The notes below the pieces were generated by a model. It saw only the letters and a program-made list of their open reading frames with translations, made no database searches and had not been told where the DNA came from. The position numbers and the translations under genes are program-made. Below are positions 1 to 35,430 of a stretch of DNA of 35,430 bases, one piece after another (position 1 is the stretch's first letter; each line of letters starts with the position of its first letter). Origin of the DNA: a virus; IMG/VR virus record IMGVR_UViG_3300031806_000016, positions 1 through 35,430 of that record, one strand, 5' to 3'.

Positions 1-2698
1 AATCCCAAGTAATTTTCGGCGTTACTCTCGGCAGGTCTGCATCAACGGCAGCAGCCGCCTTCAGATAAATAGCCTTATTTGCAGGTACGGAATAGCTCAC
101 AGCCCCACTATCGAACTTGCCCGCCACCGTATCAACGGCAGCGATAAGTGTTTCACTGCCGCCCTTTTCCGTGTCCGCATAATACAAATCCCAATTAAAT
201 TCCGTTGTTGGATCAGTCGAACATGTTATCTGTATCCTGGTAATCTTCAATGCTGCACTTGTATTGGGATCAAAGACAGCCATGACATGATTCGGGTCAA
301 GGTCGTAAATCGAGCTAGGATTAAAAATATTGGCTGTCCATTCTTGATTAAGATTAGATAGTCTGGCTTCGGCGGCATTAGGCAAGCCATCATCATCGGT
401 ATCGAAGGTATGCCCCCAGTCATAGACGGCATTTCTATCTGGAGCTACAGCCGAGCCGTTCCATGCGGAGCTATATGCGTTCGGGTCTATCGCCCGTGCG
501 CCTGTTATCCTAAAATCATCGCTGGCAGGTACATTGACATCAACAGATACATTGAGAACAGAATTATTAAGAGTTATTTTATCATTACCATTTACACCTA
601 AATTTAATGGATAATTGGTCTTTGTTAGTAAATGTCCACCATCCCCATCCATATACATCGCCAACTTCTTGTCCCCAGCCGTATCTCCAACTTGGACAAT
701 TCCACTAAGTGTTCCTCTAATATCCAAATAAGTGAAATCTGCCTGAGAATCTGGCGTAAATGCTCCGCTTTTATCGATGCCAATATCACCCCCATAGAAC
801 AATATAGGCAAACCGAATATTCTTAATGGATAGTATTCTACTTCATCCCAATCATAACTACCCAACATTGAATATCCGTCACTATGCGGATATAAAGTTA
901 TTCCCCGTGCTTCAGTCAATGATTCAGTAGCCCTAAACCCGCTCGTAGGCCCACCATCAGCTCCTACTGCATGCTGTCGCTGATCTGGCGACTCTGTTCC
1001 ATACCCAATACTACCATCCCCAAGAGCAACAAATACAGGAATCGTTCCATTGCCGGCATAAATAGCAACAACGTCCTGACCAGGGCCTCTTCCCGTTGCT
1101 GCCGATTGACCATAGAAAATCCCGCCAGGCCCGCCACCACCTCCGGCATTGCCCCCATATTGAAATACCAAGAGAGCATATTCGCCCCACCATATAGACC
1201 AATCGGTATATGTACCAGAACCAGTGCTGCTGGTTATATTCATAACTAATTCCCCAGTCGTCGAATTGTAGCTTGTTATTGTTCCTCTCATGTATTTGGT
1301 ATTGTCGCCTGTAACCTCGATATGGAGCGATTCGCCCGTGTTAAGAGATTTGCCAGTTTCAATAGTCCATGTCTTACTGCCAGTACCGATGGTATTACTG
1401 GTGCTCGATGTATAAGCTAAATCATAGACTGCAATCACAGCATTAGGCCGATTGTGCCGTACAGCATTCCATGTGGCGTTGGATATATTCGAACCCCGAA
1501 CACCCAAATAAACCGCATTGACATCGTTGACATCAAGCCGGCCATCAATTTCTGCTGCATAAGTTTTCACGTTGGCCTGATTTTCGTCCTGATTTTCACG
1601 TAGCCAGTATTCATCGTTGCCATCTATAAGCTCAACCCCCGTTAGATTTAGCGAGCCTTTGACCTGCCCAGCATACCAAGTTGCGCTTGTCTTAATCGCC
1701 GCTGTAGAGGCCGTCATTCCCAGCCAGCAGTTCTCAATAATACAACCTATCCCAGAGCCGCCGCTCAAATCAAAGTTGCATGTAATACTCTGATTTGGAG
1801 ACTCCAAATAACAATCAATAAAACGAAGGCCACGATTATGCGCACCTGTGACACAGACGCCTTTTGTTCCTTCACTCTTAAATGAATACTTGCAATTTAC
1901 ATTATTGGTAACTCGTAACCCATATGAGCTTGCTGAACTTGCAAAAGAAGAAGAAAATACGCAGGATTCAATATCGGTTGTCGTACAGGCGTTGTTCTCA
2001 TCAGCACCATACAGGTAAACTGCATCATTGCCATTAGCTGTGGAATAGACCTTATCAAATTTACTATACGCTATCTCTTCGGCATAAATGCCATACTTGC
2101 GACAATTTGTAACATTAACATTCCGCAAAAGATGATTGTAGGCATATCCGGTCGTAGTATCTTGAATGAGAATCCCTATCCCTTCTGTGTCTGGCGTAGA
2201 GCCATCCCAGTTGCCGTAAATGCACAAATCCTCAAGAGTATTATATTGCTTCATCTGGATAACATCTACGCCCACTCCGGCGGCTGTAGTAAGCCTGATT
2301 ATGGATTTGAGATACTGCGAACCTCGCATCCGCCTAAAGTTCGGCATTATAATTGTGTTGTTTACATACCATGTTCCAGACGGCACGAAAATGTCATAGC
2401 CTGCGGCAAGGGCATTATTGAAAGCAGTAAGATTAGCGGCGGCATAATTAGCATCGTTAGGAATAGCATTATAAGGCGGGTCTTTAACGTTTATTTGAAA
2501 AGCCGTTGCAATAAGGTTGGGGTCATGTGTTCCATCGGCATTATGACCAATGTAAAGCCATGTCCGCAAAAGTTCGGCCCATTTGTACTTTTCAATTTTC
2601 CAGCGGTCTGGCTCTTCGGAGGAAACGGCGGGATATTGAGCACCTAAAGTTATCCCAGTAAGCCACACGATAATCAAAAAAGGTAAAAAGCGCTTCAT
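1..2698 (-). CDS. Beta-helix tail-spike/fibre-like protein with signal peptide, C-terminus cut by window edge
   Basis: The frame stays open for 899 codons from the ATG at 2698 to the left edge, so the C-terminus is missing. Residues 1-20 (MKRFLPFLIIVWLTGITLGA) look like a Sec signal peptide, unusual for a virion protein. Residues of roughly 60-330 have the Asn/Gly-rich short-strand pattern of right-handed parallel beta-helix (pectate-lyase fold) spikes, starting with phrases such as DIFVPSGTWYV. Further on come a Gly-rich stretch, a WNGS..P.NAVYD phrase typical of phage fibres, and an acidic DTDDDGLPNAAEA loop like dockerin or thrombospondin-type calcium sites. The last ~90 residues look like beta-sandwich sequence. 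It is the last gene of the leftward tail block, behind an intrinsic terminator. The inferred role is receptor binding or polysaccharide degradation. A secreted lyase is the alternative; no catalytic residues could be assigned. Confidence 0.75.
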   Translation of the reverse strand, partial: MKRFLPFLIIVWLTGITLGAQYPAVSSEEPDRWKIEKYKWAELLRTWLYIGHNADGTHDPNLIATAFQINVKDPPYNAIPNDANYAAANLTAFNNALAAGYDIFVPSGTWYVNNTIIMPNFRRMRGSQYLKSIIRLTTAAGVGVDVIQMKQYNTLEDLCIYGNWDGSTPDTEGIGILIQDTTTGYAYNHLLRNVNVTNCRKYGIYAEEIAYSKFDKVYSTANGNDAVYLYGADENNACTTTDIESCVFSSSFASSASSYGLRVTNNVNCKYSFKSEGTKGVCVTGAHNRGLRFIDCYLESPNQSITCNFDLSGGSGIGCIIENCWLGMTASTAAIKTSATWYAGQVKGSLNLTGVELIDGNDEYWLRENQDENQANVKTYAAEIDGRLDVNDVNAVYLGVRGSNISNATWNAVRHNRPNAVIAVYDLAYTSSTSNTIGTGSKTWTIETGKSLNTGESLHIEVTGDNTKYMRGTITSYNSTTGELVMNITSSTGSGTYTDWSIWWGEYALLVFQYGGNAGGGGGPGGIFYGQSAATGRGPGQDVVAIYAGNGTIPVFVALGDGSIGYGTESPDQRQHAVGADGGPTSGFRATESLTEARGITLYPHSDGYSMLGSYDWDEVEYYPLRIFGLPILFYGGDIGIDKSGAFTPDSQADFTYLDIRGTLSGIVQVGDTAGDKKLAMYMDGDGGHLLTKTNYPLNLGVNGNDKITLNNSVLNVSVDVNVPASDDFRITGARAIDPNAYSSAWNGSAVAPDRNAVYDWGHTFDTDDDGLPNAAEARLSNLNQEWTANIFNPSSIYDLDPNHVMAVFDPNTSAALKITRIQITCSTDPTTEFNWDLYYADTEKGGSETLIAAVDTVAGKFDSGAVSYSVPANKAIYLKAAAAVDADLPRVTPKITWD

Positions 2699-4462: not shown

Positions 4463-7400
4463 AATCCCACAATCAATTCCCAAGGCATCTCATGCTCTTG
4501 CATAATCCGTATAAACTCGGCCTCACGTGCAGTTTTGGGTAATTGTTTTATGGCATCTATTAAACGGGCTTTTTGTATTTGTCTGCGCTGTTCGCCAAGA
4601 GTTTGTTTTTCTTTATCTGTTTTAGCCCGTTCAAGTTTTACTGTGTACCAAGCATCCAAGACAGATGGCTCACTAAGACGATTAGTGAATCTCTCGCCTA
4701 ATCTGCCGACCACAAAGATAGCCTGCTTAGTTGTATCTGTTTCAGTCTTTAATGCAGGAATGAAATTCGCCCATAATCGGTAAATCTTAGTCAGTTCTTT
4801 CATGCATGCCGAACTTCTAACAAATTCGGCAGGAATTTGTTCGCTGTCAATAAAACCTCTCTCGATATTGCCGAGATACTTATTTTCTTGATTTCTAATC
4901 CATTCTATCTGTCTGACATTATCCCAAGTGAAGCTCTTAGTTCTTCCATCTTTGGTTTTAAGAACGAGTTCTGTCTTTTTATTTACATCGAAAATGCCAA
5001 GAGCACCCCATCCAGCCCATCTATCGACTAATTTGCGGAATGCTATATCTCTTGGTAAACCCCTTTGATAACTCTGAACAGTCTGTGCCAGAAATGGCGC
5101 AGAGCATTTTATAAAATATAAAAATTCATATTTGCCTTTGTCTAACGGATTTAAGTACTTCGGGTCAGTAGGATATATCGGTGCCTTATCATAAGGGTCG
5201 CGTCTTTGAATCAAGCCTTGAATGCAACGTATCCAGGGTGAAGCTAAATATGCGATTCCTTCAGCTTCTTTTATTCCCCACCGTTTAAGCGCCATCAAGG
5301 CTGCTTGTCTTGGAGACATTTCGCCTGCCGCTACTCTCGCTGAATAATCTACGAGGACAGAGAATATCTTTGTCCCTATTAAGACGTCTTGGGGCAGTTG
5401 TAATGGTAACACTCTTGTAGAGCCATCGAGATTTTCGCCGAGGATTACATGAACTCGATTTCGGACATAATCAGGTAACTCCATTTCTGTCTTAACGCTC
5501 TTTTGGTTTCTGTAATTCCATAAGGCGGCAGCTATCGGAGCAACCAAGAAGGCAAGCAAGAACCGCCAAGGTTTTTTGACGCCCCATTGCCACATAAGAT
5601 TTGAAGCCTTAGAATACCAAGTCCCGAAAGGAGCTAAACCGCCTCTTATTATCCGGTCAAAAGTTTTACTGGCCCAACCGTAATCAACAAGTACATCTCG
5701 GCTGATTTTACCCAAGGCTTCTTGCGTGGATAATCCTTCTGTATCTATCCAATTGTGATATTTAACAAACTGGTCGCCTTGACCTTCTTTTAGGGCTTTC
5801 AATAGAGTCGAGGCATAAGCTACGCGCATAATGGTTTCTCGGAATTCTGAAATTGTTTGTGCCCCACGCAATAATATAACTAATGGATTGCGGGATTTAA
5901 TTATTCGATATAGGTCAGTTCGTGCGAAAAGACCTGTTAAGATAGCATTGTTATTTATGAATTTTTCGAGTTCGGCCAAGTAACCCGCCTTTTCTTTTGT
6001 AGTCAAATAAGATAATGACACCTCAATTTCTTTAAGAAGTTTTAGAGGTTGTGGATGCTGAGATGCAGCCATCCATGTATCGCCGATTAGGTTATTGAGA
6101 TTAAAGGTAGGAAAGTGGGTTAGAATGGCTTGCGTTTTCCACAGCCTTGTTGCCAGATTAAGATAATATAATCCTCGACTTCCGCGCTGCGAGAACTCTC
6201 TAAAGACATTGTAAATTTCCTCTGACAGCAATACGACATGCTTATATTTACCAAGAGCCATCAAGCCACTTTCGGTAGGGAATATCGTGCGGCTAAATGG
6301 CGCATCTGGACTATAAGTTCGATAACGCTTACCTTCAATCTCTACGATTCGGCCTGGTCGAGGAGGATTAACTCGTCCAGCTTTATCTACACCAAATAAA
6401 GCTGCGCGTTGTTCTCTGGAAAGCTCAGGCAATTTATTATATTTGGTAAGTTGCTCAAGAAGAAAATCGTCAATGATATTGTCATATTCCACTTCCATAA
6501 AGTGGTCGAGAATCGCATTTTTATCTTGACGATATTCTTTTGTTGTGCCAACTGCTTTTTTGGCATAACCCCTGAATGGCTTGCGTAAGCGCCGAGGAAT
6601 ACCAAAAACTGGTGCCCACTTTGGAGTATAATCAACTATATAATGACGGGCGTAAAACTCTATATGCTGGTCTGGGCTAAGAACGCCTCTATCAACAAGA
6701 TTCTGCCGATATTGTTCCATTATCTGGTTATATCTGTCGGCGGCGGCCATGGCTTCTGGTAAGGCATCTTTCAAAATTTCCTCTAATATCTTTTGAGCTT
6801 GCTCCAATGAAATTTCTGGATTGCCTTTACTTAAAGCTGTTCGAGAAACTTGGTCTCTTGCCCAGATAATCTCTATTGATTTTTGAATATCTTGCTTACC
6901 TAAATCGCCCCAGATTACAGGTGCAATTTCGTTATGAACGAAGTATAGCGCTTGATCTCTTGCACCTATGAATTTTATCCGTATCGCATTACGCAGTTCC
7001 ATCGGAGCTTTGGGATAAAATCGCAGAGAATCGACAATATCTTTAATTTCCTCAGCGGCTGCTTTTGCTCTTTCTTGAAATGCTTCTGGAATTGGTACTC
7101 GAATAAAGCCAGGTCTCAATTTTGGATTTCTGATGCGGTCTTTGAGGTCTTCAGTTGCTTTGGCCTGCTGTTTTATATAGTCTTCTGCTCTTTCGAGCGC
7201 TTTGTACTTTGCCTCATCATAAGGAATAGTCTGGCGGTATTTGGTTAAGGCATTTTTGTAGATAGCCTTCTGGCCTGGCGAAAGGGCGGCGAAACGCTTA
7301 CCAAAATCTTTTTTGACGATTTCCGGCTTAGCTTCTAATGTTGGCTTTTCTGGAATTTTTGGAGTTGTTACTGGCGGCGCTTCCACCGGCGCTTCTTTAA

Positions 7401-12338: not shown

Positions 12339-12683
12339 CTAAAATAGATATAGTTCTACGGCGGCATTTGCCGCCGAACACTTCAGGTAAACAGTGGTAT
12401 CCTTCCACGCTGTCGTTGACTTATAGATAATGCCAACCTTGTCTATCTTGGTGACAATGAAACCTTCAGGAATCCTTTGCAGATGGTGTGTAATACTAAA
12501 TTCGGTATCTGCGTTACCAGTATCAGCTACCGATAGTTTCTCAGAACGATTAAAGGAAATCGCAGAAATTTTTTTTAGTGTTTCATCAAGAAAAAATACC
12601 AGTTGTTGAGCCCAAGTGCGCGTTGCATCATCTTTAATTCCGCCTGTTGGTGGGAATAATTGCGTGGATAACAACTTGCTCAC
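12339..12683 (-). CDS. Small virion protein, beta-rich
   Basis: A 114-residue protein that starts with a helical N-terminus (TRTWAQQLVFFLDETLKKI) and ends in a compact beta-rich domain around HHLQRIPEGFIVTKID and TVYLKCSAANAAVELYLF. Short phage proteins of this build often sit beside fibre or nozzle genes and are thought to be part of the tail tip. Its start overlaps the stop of the nozzle gene by 4 nt (ATGA-type junction at 12680-12683), which supports the start and coupled translation. Function is unassigned. Confidence 0.6.
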   Translation of the reverse strand: MSKLLSTQLFPPTGGIKDDATRTWAQQLVFFLDETLKKISAISFNRSEKLSVADTGNADTEFSITHHLQRIPEGFIVTKIDKVGIIYKSTTAWKDTTVYLKCSAANAAVELYLF

Positions 12684-34507: not shown

Positions 34508-34564
34508 AAACACGCACTTGACTTTACCTTATACATGGGAAGGCAACTATGTTCTTTGACAACT

Positions 34565-34578
34565 TAATAGCGGTGAAC
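34565..34578 (+). repeat. Left arm of 14-bp inverted repeat
   Basis: TAATAGCGGTGAAC, the exact reverse complement of 35137-35150 on the far side of the metalloprotease gene. Nine of its bases (GCGGTGAAC) recur at 34585-34593, just before the ATG. Confidence 0.75.
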
Positions 34579-34594
34579 AGAAAGGCGGTGAACT

Positions 34595-35134
34595 ATGAAG
34601 CTACTCAATAAAACCCTTTATGATGGTCACTACTTGCGGCGGTTATTTCTCGAATGTGAAAAGCATATCTTTGCTGTATATCTTAAACATGCTGAGGAAC
34701 CTGGGCGCCAAATTGTAGTTGAATACCACAAAGGTAAAAATAATCATGGCGTAAGAGGTCATGCCTGGTATCACAGTAGAACAATTCATATACAATTGCC
34801 TCGGCCTCGTAAGGAATTTGGATCAACTGGCTTGAAAGTTTCTGCCCGCGATGTAGCAACTACTTATCTGCATGAAGTTGGTCATAACATGGGGCTGCGT
34901 CATAAACAGATGGGCAAATGGTGGAATATAGATACGTCATGGTGGCCAGATGAAATTACGCCTTTGAAAGCTATCAAACAGAAACCGAAACAAAACATCA
35001 TTGAATTTAGGGCCGCAAAAGCGCAGCGCAAACTTGACGAATGGAAAAGCAAAGTTAAACGCGCAAACAAACTTGTCAAAAAATATAGCGATAAAGTGCG
35101 CTATTACGAAAAGAAAATGTCAGCATTTAACTAA
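34595..35134 (+). CDS. Metzincin-type zinc metalloprotease
   Basis: A 179-residue protein. HEVGHNMGLRH (93-103) is a full HExxHxxGxxH metzincin zinc site with three His ligands, the catalytic Glu and the Gly turn. Upstream, HSRTIHIQLPRPRKEFGS and VSARDVATTYLHE give the strand and active-site helix. KQMGKW after the site supplies a candidate Met-turn, though very close. The last ~45 residues are a basic coiled coil (RKLDEWKSKVKRANKLVKKY). No signal peptide is seen, so it acts in the cytoplasm or in the virion. It is the first gene of the rightward unit, has AAAGG before the ATG, and ends in tandem TAA TAG. Host-protein cleavage or head maturation is possible. Confidence 0.75.
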   Translation: MKLLNKTLYDGHYLRRLFLECEKHIFAVYLKHAEEPGRQIVVEYHKGKNNHGVRGHAWYHSRTIHIQLPRPRKEFGSTGLKVSARDVATTYLHEVGHNMGLRHKQMGKWWNIDTSWWPDEITPLKAIKQKPKQNIIEFRAAKAQRKLDEWKSKVKRANKLVKKYSDKVRYYEKKMSAFN

Positions 35135-35136
35135 TA

Positions 35137-35150
35137 GTTCACCGCTATTA
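35137..35150 (+). repeat. Right arm of 14-bp inverted repeat
   Basis: GTTCACCGCTATTA, complementary to 34565-34578 and, over nine bases, to 34585-34593 beside the start codon. In mRNA it can pair with the region holding the ribosome site of the metalloprotease gene. Confidence 0.75.
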
Positions 35151-35155
35151 GGAAT

Positions 35156-35194
35156 CCCCGCTCGGCTTGGCCGTAGCTGCAAAAGCAAGCGGGG
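35156..35194 (+). ncRNA. Three-way-junction-like hairpin
   Basis: CCCCGCT/AGCGGGG (35156-35162/35188-35194) closes two small hairpins, CGGC-TTG-GCCG (35163-35173) and TGC-AAAA-GCA (35178-35187). The parts abut almost without spare bases. Folding was read by eye. Confidence 0.45.
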
Positions 35195-35200
35195 AATTAT

Positions 35201-35302
35201 GAACACGGCAAGAATCTCAACCAAGAAATAAGACAAAGCCTGGTGGTGTTTCTGCGCAGCCGACTTGCCGTGTTCGCGTGGATCCCGCCGGGCTTTGTTT
35301 TT
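35201..35302 (+). ncRNA. Two interleaved long stems: pseudoknot or attenuator candidate
   Basis: Stem A: GAACACGGCAAG (35201-35212) with CTTGCCGTGTTC (35264-35275), 12 perfect pairs. Stem B: ACAAAGCCTGG (35233-35243) with CCGGGCTTTGT (35288-35298), 11 pairs with one G.U. The order is A-B-A'-B', so the stems form a pseudoknot or exclude each other. Stem B is followed by TTTT, making it terminator-like for rightward transcription. No gene fits the 181-nt gap. Confidence 0.5.
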
Positions 35303-35315
35303 GAAAGGTCGAAAG

Positions 35316-35430
35316 ATGAAGAGTGATGCTAAACCATCTTTACAAGAAAGGTGCAAAACAGTTGCACCGCGATTATATGCCGTGCTTGACTGGAAAGGAA
35401 CTGAAAATGAGGTATGGGGCGATGGGTGGT
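35316..35430 (+). CDS. Rightward gene, C-terminus cut by window edge
   Basis: 38 codons are visible: MKSDAKPSLQERCKTVAPRL, then YAVLDWKGTENEVWGDGW. AAAGG lies 7 nt before the ATG. No family can be assigned from this fragment. It follows the structured segment, so its expression may depend on readthrough of stem B. Confidence 0.55.
   Translation, partial: MKSDAKPSLQERCKTVAPRLYAVLDWKGTENEVWGDGW

Follow-up and report, generated by a model that had tools for sequence, protein, structure and literature searches.

Attenuators of the trp and erm type consist of a short leader ORF, alternative stems and a U-tailed hairpin upstream of a gene. The element described here is located at the right end of a stretch of virus DNA of 35,430 nucleotides, which comprises an entire virus record (IMG/VR IMGVR_UViG_3300031806_000016) and is referred to as the window. 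In E. coli, an intrinsic terminator such as tR2 is repressed when a ribosome translates close to it (PMC4824070). With attenuators of this type, the element shares a short ORF, alternative stems and a U-tailed hairpin in front of a gene. In contrast to the trp/erm type, the two stems (S1 and S2) interleave and have no arms in common, the region of the start codon is paired via S1 with the loop of S2, the stem resembling a terminator, and several copies with unrelated stem sequences occur per phage in front of different genes.

A pseudoknot in a phage leader upstream of a ribosome-binding site is known from the gene 32 mRNA of T4/T2, and according to a review of 2010 the T4 knot may be the sole known viral pseudoknot in translation autoregulation (PMC3014915). 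That knot is small, and 67 nt separate it from the start codon downstream (PMC3014915), whereas here the stems comprise 9–21 bp, S2 lies 13–30 nt from the start codon in most cases, and a U-run and a leader ORF are present. A gene for an ssDNA-binding protein was not found directly behind the element in any of the relatives' cases checked. The type III toxin-antitoxin RNAs ToxI and CptI resemble the element in the order of promoter, pseudoknotted RNA, terminator and gene (PMC5086642), but the stems are much longer here and the terminator-like stem is itself part of the knot. Tandem repeats of the type III kind are absent at 34900–35430 beyond the inverted arms, and the element is single. The genes behind the element in the relatives belong to families other than ToxN/TenpN/CptN or are unknowns; the window gene is cut at 38 aa. 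The put RNA of phage HK022 is likewise a structured RNA (~70 nt) of an early phage transcript which affects the continuation of transcription, but it acts by suppressing terminators at a distance and is built from two stem-loops, with no pseudoknot (PMC9378689). Here, the stems are interleaved (A-B-A'-B') and possess their own U-run, and the two adjacent stem-loops of put were not found.

None of the 4227 families of Rfam 15 matched at or above the gathering threshold, and no description of such an element was found in the open-access full-text literature. The element has the appearance of an on/off gate of phage genes, of a type that has not been described. Although it would work like an attenuator, membership in that class is not claimed, because the translational control of termination is a defining step which we infer.

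Structure of the element in the window

The preliminary description had reported interleaved stems of 12 and 11 bp, and a stem search found both at that place; all features given here lie on the plus strand. S1 (GAACACGGCAAG/CTTGCCGTGTTC, 35201–35212/35264–35275) is a perfect stem of 12 bp and the longest Watson-Crick stem of the 35-kb window among pairs with a span of up to 110 nt; T35200 provides an additional G-U pair. The S2 core of 11 bp contains one G-U pair, and the full stem extends to 17 bp with three G-U pairs (AAGACAAAGCCTGGTGG, 35230–35246; CCGCCGGGCTTTGTTTT, 35285–35301). As had been reported, this last stem ends in a U-run, since its 3' arm merges with a U-rich, terminator-like tail (TTGTTTTT, 35295–35302). 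The loops comprise 17 nt (L1, AATCTCAACCAAGAAAT, 35213–35229), 17 nt (L2) and 8–9 nt (L3), and L1 is rich in A and C, as it is in the relatives.

The tail is separated by 14 nt from the next ATG at 35316. In between, the SD-like AAAGG of the downstream gene is located (35304–35308), where TTGAAAGG is common to the window and an element of a related phage (L299:10334). The downstream gene (starting with MKSDAKPSLQERCKTVAPRLYAVLDWKGTENEVWGDGW, 35316–35430) is cut by the end of the record ~115 bases past its ATG, and a PHROG search with the remaining fragment of 38 aa gave no match at that length. The stretch, regarded as free of genes before, indeed harbors no sizeable gene, but it contains an ORF of 10 codons (MNTARISTKK, 35199–35231), whose start codon is located at the 5' end of S1 and whose stop codon TAA (35229–35231) lies exactly at the 5' edge of S2.

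Upstream of S1, the hairpin P1 with 8 bp (TCCCCGCT/AGCGGGGA, 35155–35195, arms 35155–35162 and 35188–35195) is real in the sequence but does not belong to the conserved parts of the element. The three-way junction formerly proposed, with stems of 4 and 3 bp inside P1, could not be confirmed: RNAfold chooses another inner fold, and the junction is not conserved. GGGGA in the 3' arm of P1 could be the ribosome site of the leader ORF.

The region from 35149 to 35305 folds better than shuffled sequences (RNAfold, z -3.25), as does the region from 35197 to 35305 (z -3.4). RNAfold, which cannot represent knots, prefers the S2 hairpin and forms P1 separately. A GC stem followed by a U-run, as in terminators, is present with S2 and its tail in the window and in most members of the clade; a simple terminator scan omitted S2 because its loop exceeds 8 nt. 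The RNA is read rightward, since on the minus strand the three G-U pairs of S2 would turn into A-C mismatches. The stretch of ~150 bases is a real structured RNA with two long interlocking stems.

The rightward gene upstream of the element (34595–35134) encodes a metzincin-type zinc motif (HEVGHNMGLRH) with a weak match to Pfam M66/reprolysin. No relatives of this gene were found in the collections and loci searched, and it was therefore unusable as an anchor for comparisons. At 34550–34562, 45 nt upstream of its ATG, TGTTCTTTGACAA resembles a boxA antitermination site as in rrn leaders. This site was rejected as a part of the system, because it was absent from the first 86 loci checked. Furthermore, the 5' UTR of the gene contains two copies of GCGGTGAAC (34570–34593), and an inverted one is located past the stop codon (35132–35152). 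The inverted copy is part of a hairpin (CTAATAG-TTCACCG-CTATTAG), and the loop of this hairpin is complementary to both other copies; four matches to GCGGTGAAC were counted in the window, with 0.13 expected.

Occurrence in related phages

BLAST and protein searches with the right end of the window against known phages gave no match, and neither did a search of viral contigs with an exact pattern built on P1. An ordinary sequence search is blind to the element, because mainly the topology is kept. The nearest relatives were gathered by terminase and portal alignments, and near-complete records were fetched. Among them, the layout S1-L1-S2-L2-S1'-L3-S2' was found at 17 further sites, with up to three per genome. 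The elements obtained by way of the terminase are located at L113:350–453, L105:1456–1540 and L169:19759–19854 (plus strand) and at L172:1270–1190, L181:7021–6927, L166:10636–10563 and L010:736–649 (minus strand). Those of the portal relatives are located at L299:10334–10432 and 12597–12676 (plus), L303:6968–7052 (plus), 18941–18855 and 14088–13985 (both minus), L301:12230–12146 (minus), 1101–1187 and 6131–6233 (both plus), L279:396–312 (minus) and L283:3186–3105 (minus); a weaker one lies at L294:6485–6583 (plus).

Two genomes (G053 with L301 and G059 with L303) contain three elements each, which are homologous between both genomes, and a third (G060 with L299) contains two; within one genome, the stem sequences differ among the copies. 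The likeliest homologue of the window element appears to be the one at L299:10334, judged by ATGAAC at S1 and TTGAAAGG past S2, though its alignment with the window is weak. The preliminary description had named homologues which keep neither stem as an argument against the RNA; most close relatives do carry the element, and more distant ones are without it. It is not present in every genome of the wider group, and in the Manatee Spring phages and Rhodoferax phage P26218, whose terminases are distant, no element was found, barring probable chance matches in coding sequence. In the alignable trio L303/L301/L279, S1 is nearly invariant and all variable S2 pairs are kept, with two double-sided changes and three via G-U; with three sequences, a shuffle control of this trio is powerless.

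Some interleaved matches within coding sequence (e.g. L055, L096 and L029) were discounted as coincidences due to coding or a high GC content. At L098:2523–2578, repeated GGCGCCAGTGTCG units in noncoding sequence were scored as interleaved stems, but their appearance is different, and they are possibly an operator array. A search of genome contigs with the terminase profile led to two contigs with terminase relatives (L273 and L274) which had been assigned to Planctomycetota (Planctomycetota and Brocadiaceae MAGs). They contain no convincing element but hint at the hosts which the lineage may infect.

A sigma70-like promoter is often located upstream of the element in the relatives. In L113 (TTGACA-16-TATAAT) and L105 (TTGACA-17-TAAAGT) it ends 7–8 nt upstream of S1, and TTGACT/TTGATT-16..18-TATAAT/GATAAT was found 7–29 nt upstream of S1 in L301 (two sites), L299b and L283. 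In the window, no clear promoter was detected at S1, and the same holds for L181 and L010. The same genomes also carry promoter-like sites without a knot, and the knot is therefore not a general companion of promoters. Past S2', most relatives possess a T-run; a clear one is absent in L010, L299b, L169 and L294. The distance from the end of S2 to the gene start is 13–30 nt in most sites, and the downstream genes are mixed (MmcB-like, GP88, DUF1376 and unknowns).

Comparison with shuffled sequences

The summed helix energy of every interleaved stem pair was used as a score for rarity. In 12 loci including the window (193 kb, both strands), S1 and S2 of the window reached -56 kcal/mol, beyond the best value of -41.3 in an equal amount of dinucleotide-shuffled sequence, which supports the earlier statement that such stems are unlikely by chance; this comparison is biased, since the loci were partly chosen because a first scan had found elements there. 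The top sites of these loci were L113 (-58), the window, L023 (-55), L035 and L040 (-52) and L105 (-47), and one pair on the minus strand of L040 (-46.9) was also in the top range. In 87 kb of noncoding sequence of the terminase relatives, five segments scored -45 or better, compared with an average of 0.025 in 40 shuffles. The portal relatives yielded eight sites at -50 kcal/mol or better, compared with 0.125 in shuffles, and are a fair test because they were fetched after the search rule had been fixed. Chance matches begin at -40 or weaker, and the weaker members L169 (-36), L166 (-31) and L294 (-42) therefore rest on other features.

Leader ORF

An ATG is present between -15 and +20 of the first base of S1, most commonly at -1, at 17 of 18 sites, and the element is flanked by this start codon on one side and by the next gene on the other. 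Read from the nearest ATG, the sequence stays open through the end of S2 in 15 of the 17, compared with 6.8 expected from shuffles; each of the two remaining frames is open at seven sites. This comparison was conceived after the sequences had been seen, and some sites are mutually homologous, reducing the effective number to about 14; the excess persists. The stop codon follows within ~30 nt past S2, near or overlapping the next start codon, in L299a, L303 (both), L279, L301:6131 and L166. The window is one of the two exceptions, as its ORF stops at the S2 edge. In the other, L113, a second ATG within S1 behind AGGAG opens a frame throughout. Since the window ORF comprises only 10 codons and is followed by sequence that is nearly open in all three frames, the argument from the frame rests on the relatives. 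A leader ORF overlapping alternative stems, as in leader-peptide attenuators, is found for the clade, with the window contributing its ORF of 10 codons.

The element at L301:6131–6233 (identical to L282:515–617) possesses an S1 of 21 bp which encloses the start of the leader ORF, and this ORF ends with ATGA, overlapping the next start codon. In its relative in L303, a difference of one base shifts the leader stop.

Covariation in leaders of DUF1376 genes

A similar interleaved leader precedes DUF1376 genes and is alignable. These leaders were found via a conserved downstream hairpin and a two-gap pattern; the hairpin (GTCCGCTACATGGCGGAC) is perfectly conserved at L023:5916–5933 and in 38 other stretches, just upstream of DUF1376 genes and behind the knotted leader. 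In a set of nine distinct sequences, both partners changed in 16 of the 26 base pairs which make up S1 and S2. Altogether, 90.6% of the cells pair, none of 500 shuffles matched this value, and a shift of the partner by one base abolishes the signal; the arms were placed by complementarity before the alignment, which leans towards structure. The S1 arms are anchored by an invariant GAGCG/CGCTC and required no choice of placement. The basal S1 pairs are invariant, and a second CGCTC, located in L1, offers an additional complementary partner, which gives the impression of a competition among three strands; this short competing hairpin GAGCG/CGCTC occurs only in the DUF1376 family.

The family has weak T-runs, and no conserved leader frame was found in it. 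It shares the topology of the window element, whereas a common ancestry is not demonstrable from the sequences. Matches to the family pattern at L244:9133–9189 and L263:13015–13071 were rejected as chance matches; both sites, on viral contigs, resemble an integron attC-type site (GCCTAAC...GTTAGA).

Proposed mechanism and alternative explanations

We give nearly an even chance to the explanation that the element is a cis-acting knotted attenuator which is gated by translation of the leader ORF. RNA polymerase moving to the right would produce a short leader ORF which begins at the 5' arm of S1. A ribosome that starts on this ORF in time would hold S1 open and cover the 5' arm of S2 (in the window, the putative leader stop codon lies exactly at this arm). 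The U-tailed S2 hairpin would then be blocked, and the polymerase would proceed into the gene at 35316. If no ribosome arrived before the 3' arm of S1 emerged, S1 would shut over the start region and S2 would form behind it, which would cut off transcription or keep ribosomes from loading at the next gene. Leader translation and the S1/S2 fold would be mutually exclusive, and S2 with its U-run would decide on gene entry. Both stems may coexist as a pseudoknot or exchange with each other, termination would occur at S2, and the signal read by such regulation may be the loading of the ribosome.

Of the three readings offered in the preliminary description, an attenuator or leader is the best supported, by the interleaved architecture ahead of gene starts, the T-run, the promoters and the leader ORF in the relatives, whereas no feature specific to exonuclease-resistant RNA was found. 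The remaining one, a non-coding RNA, is a serious rival, although we consider it unlikely. A stand-alone small RNA of ~75–110 nt would reach from about S1 to the U-run of S2, with its ends buried in helices and L1 and L2 exposed to act in trans on RNA or proteins of host or phage, and the gene behind it would be expressed via read-through only. This would agree with promoters directly upstream of S1 in several members, the T-run past S2, the mutually unrelated downstream genes and the presence of up to three copies per genome. Against it speak the near-constant short distance between S2 and the gene start and the frame open through the element; moreover, no loop sequence is conserved throughout the clade, and the window has no promoter at S1. 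The other serious rival, to which we assign a small chance, is a constitutive 5' leader which stabilizes the mRNA or binds a phage protein, as in T4 gene 32, the U-rich stretch being a ribosome-loading site and not a terminator. In most sites, S2 does end 13–21 nt upstream of the start codon, with the U-rich stretch directly 5' of the SD sequence, and in members with a clear promoter S1 starts 7–8 nt past the -10 box, where the 5' end is expected. However, S2 has the perfect A-tract/GC/U-tract form of a terminator in the window and several relatives, and the structure of such a passive leader would be unfolded again and again if a leader ORF running through the element were translated.

The open frame in 15 of 17 sites, which in L181 and L301 coincides with the frame of the next gene, might also mean that a small protein is the relevant product, either by itself or as additional N-terminal residues of the next gene product, with the stems tuning its expression. 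This is improbable, as the peptides have no sequence similarity to each other, the window encodes only 10 codons, the nearest-ATG frame of L303 differs from that of L301 and L279, and the substitutions in this trio are not concentrated at third codon positions. Finally, interleaved inverted repeats are present on both DNA strands, and weak matches of -40 or poorer arise by chance, so that a DNA-level element (e.g. a binding or origin site) or a coincidence of repeats without any role of an RNA could be considered. The G-U pairs on one strand, the polarity of promoter, SD sequence and T-run, the covariation via G-U and the shuffle statistics make this highly improbable.

It is possible, though rather doubtful, that this lineage of uncultured phages employs a recurring RNA device as the entry gate to several transcription units, namely a terminator with a loop that forms a knot with the start codon of a leader ORF. 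Each gate would open only if a ribosome loads while the polymerase crosses ~60 nt. The stem sequences differ from copy to copy, and it is the topology that is kept. The search rule used here is simple and applicable to any set of phages. If the element is a translation-gated terminator, it would represent a compact phage switch which senses the availability of ribosomes at the start of a transcript.
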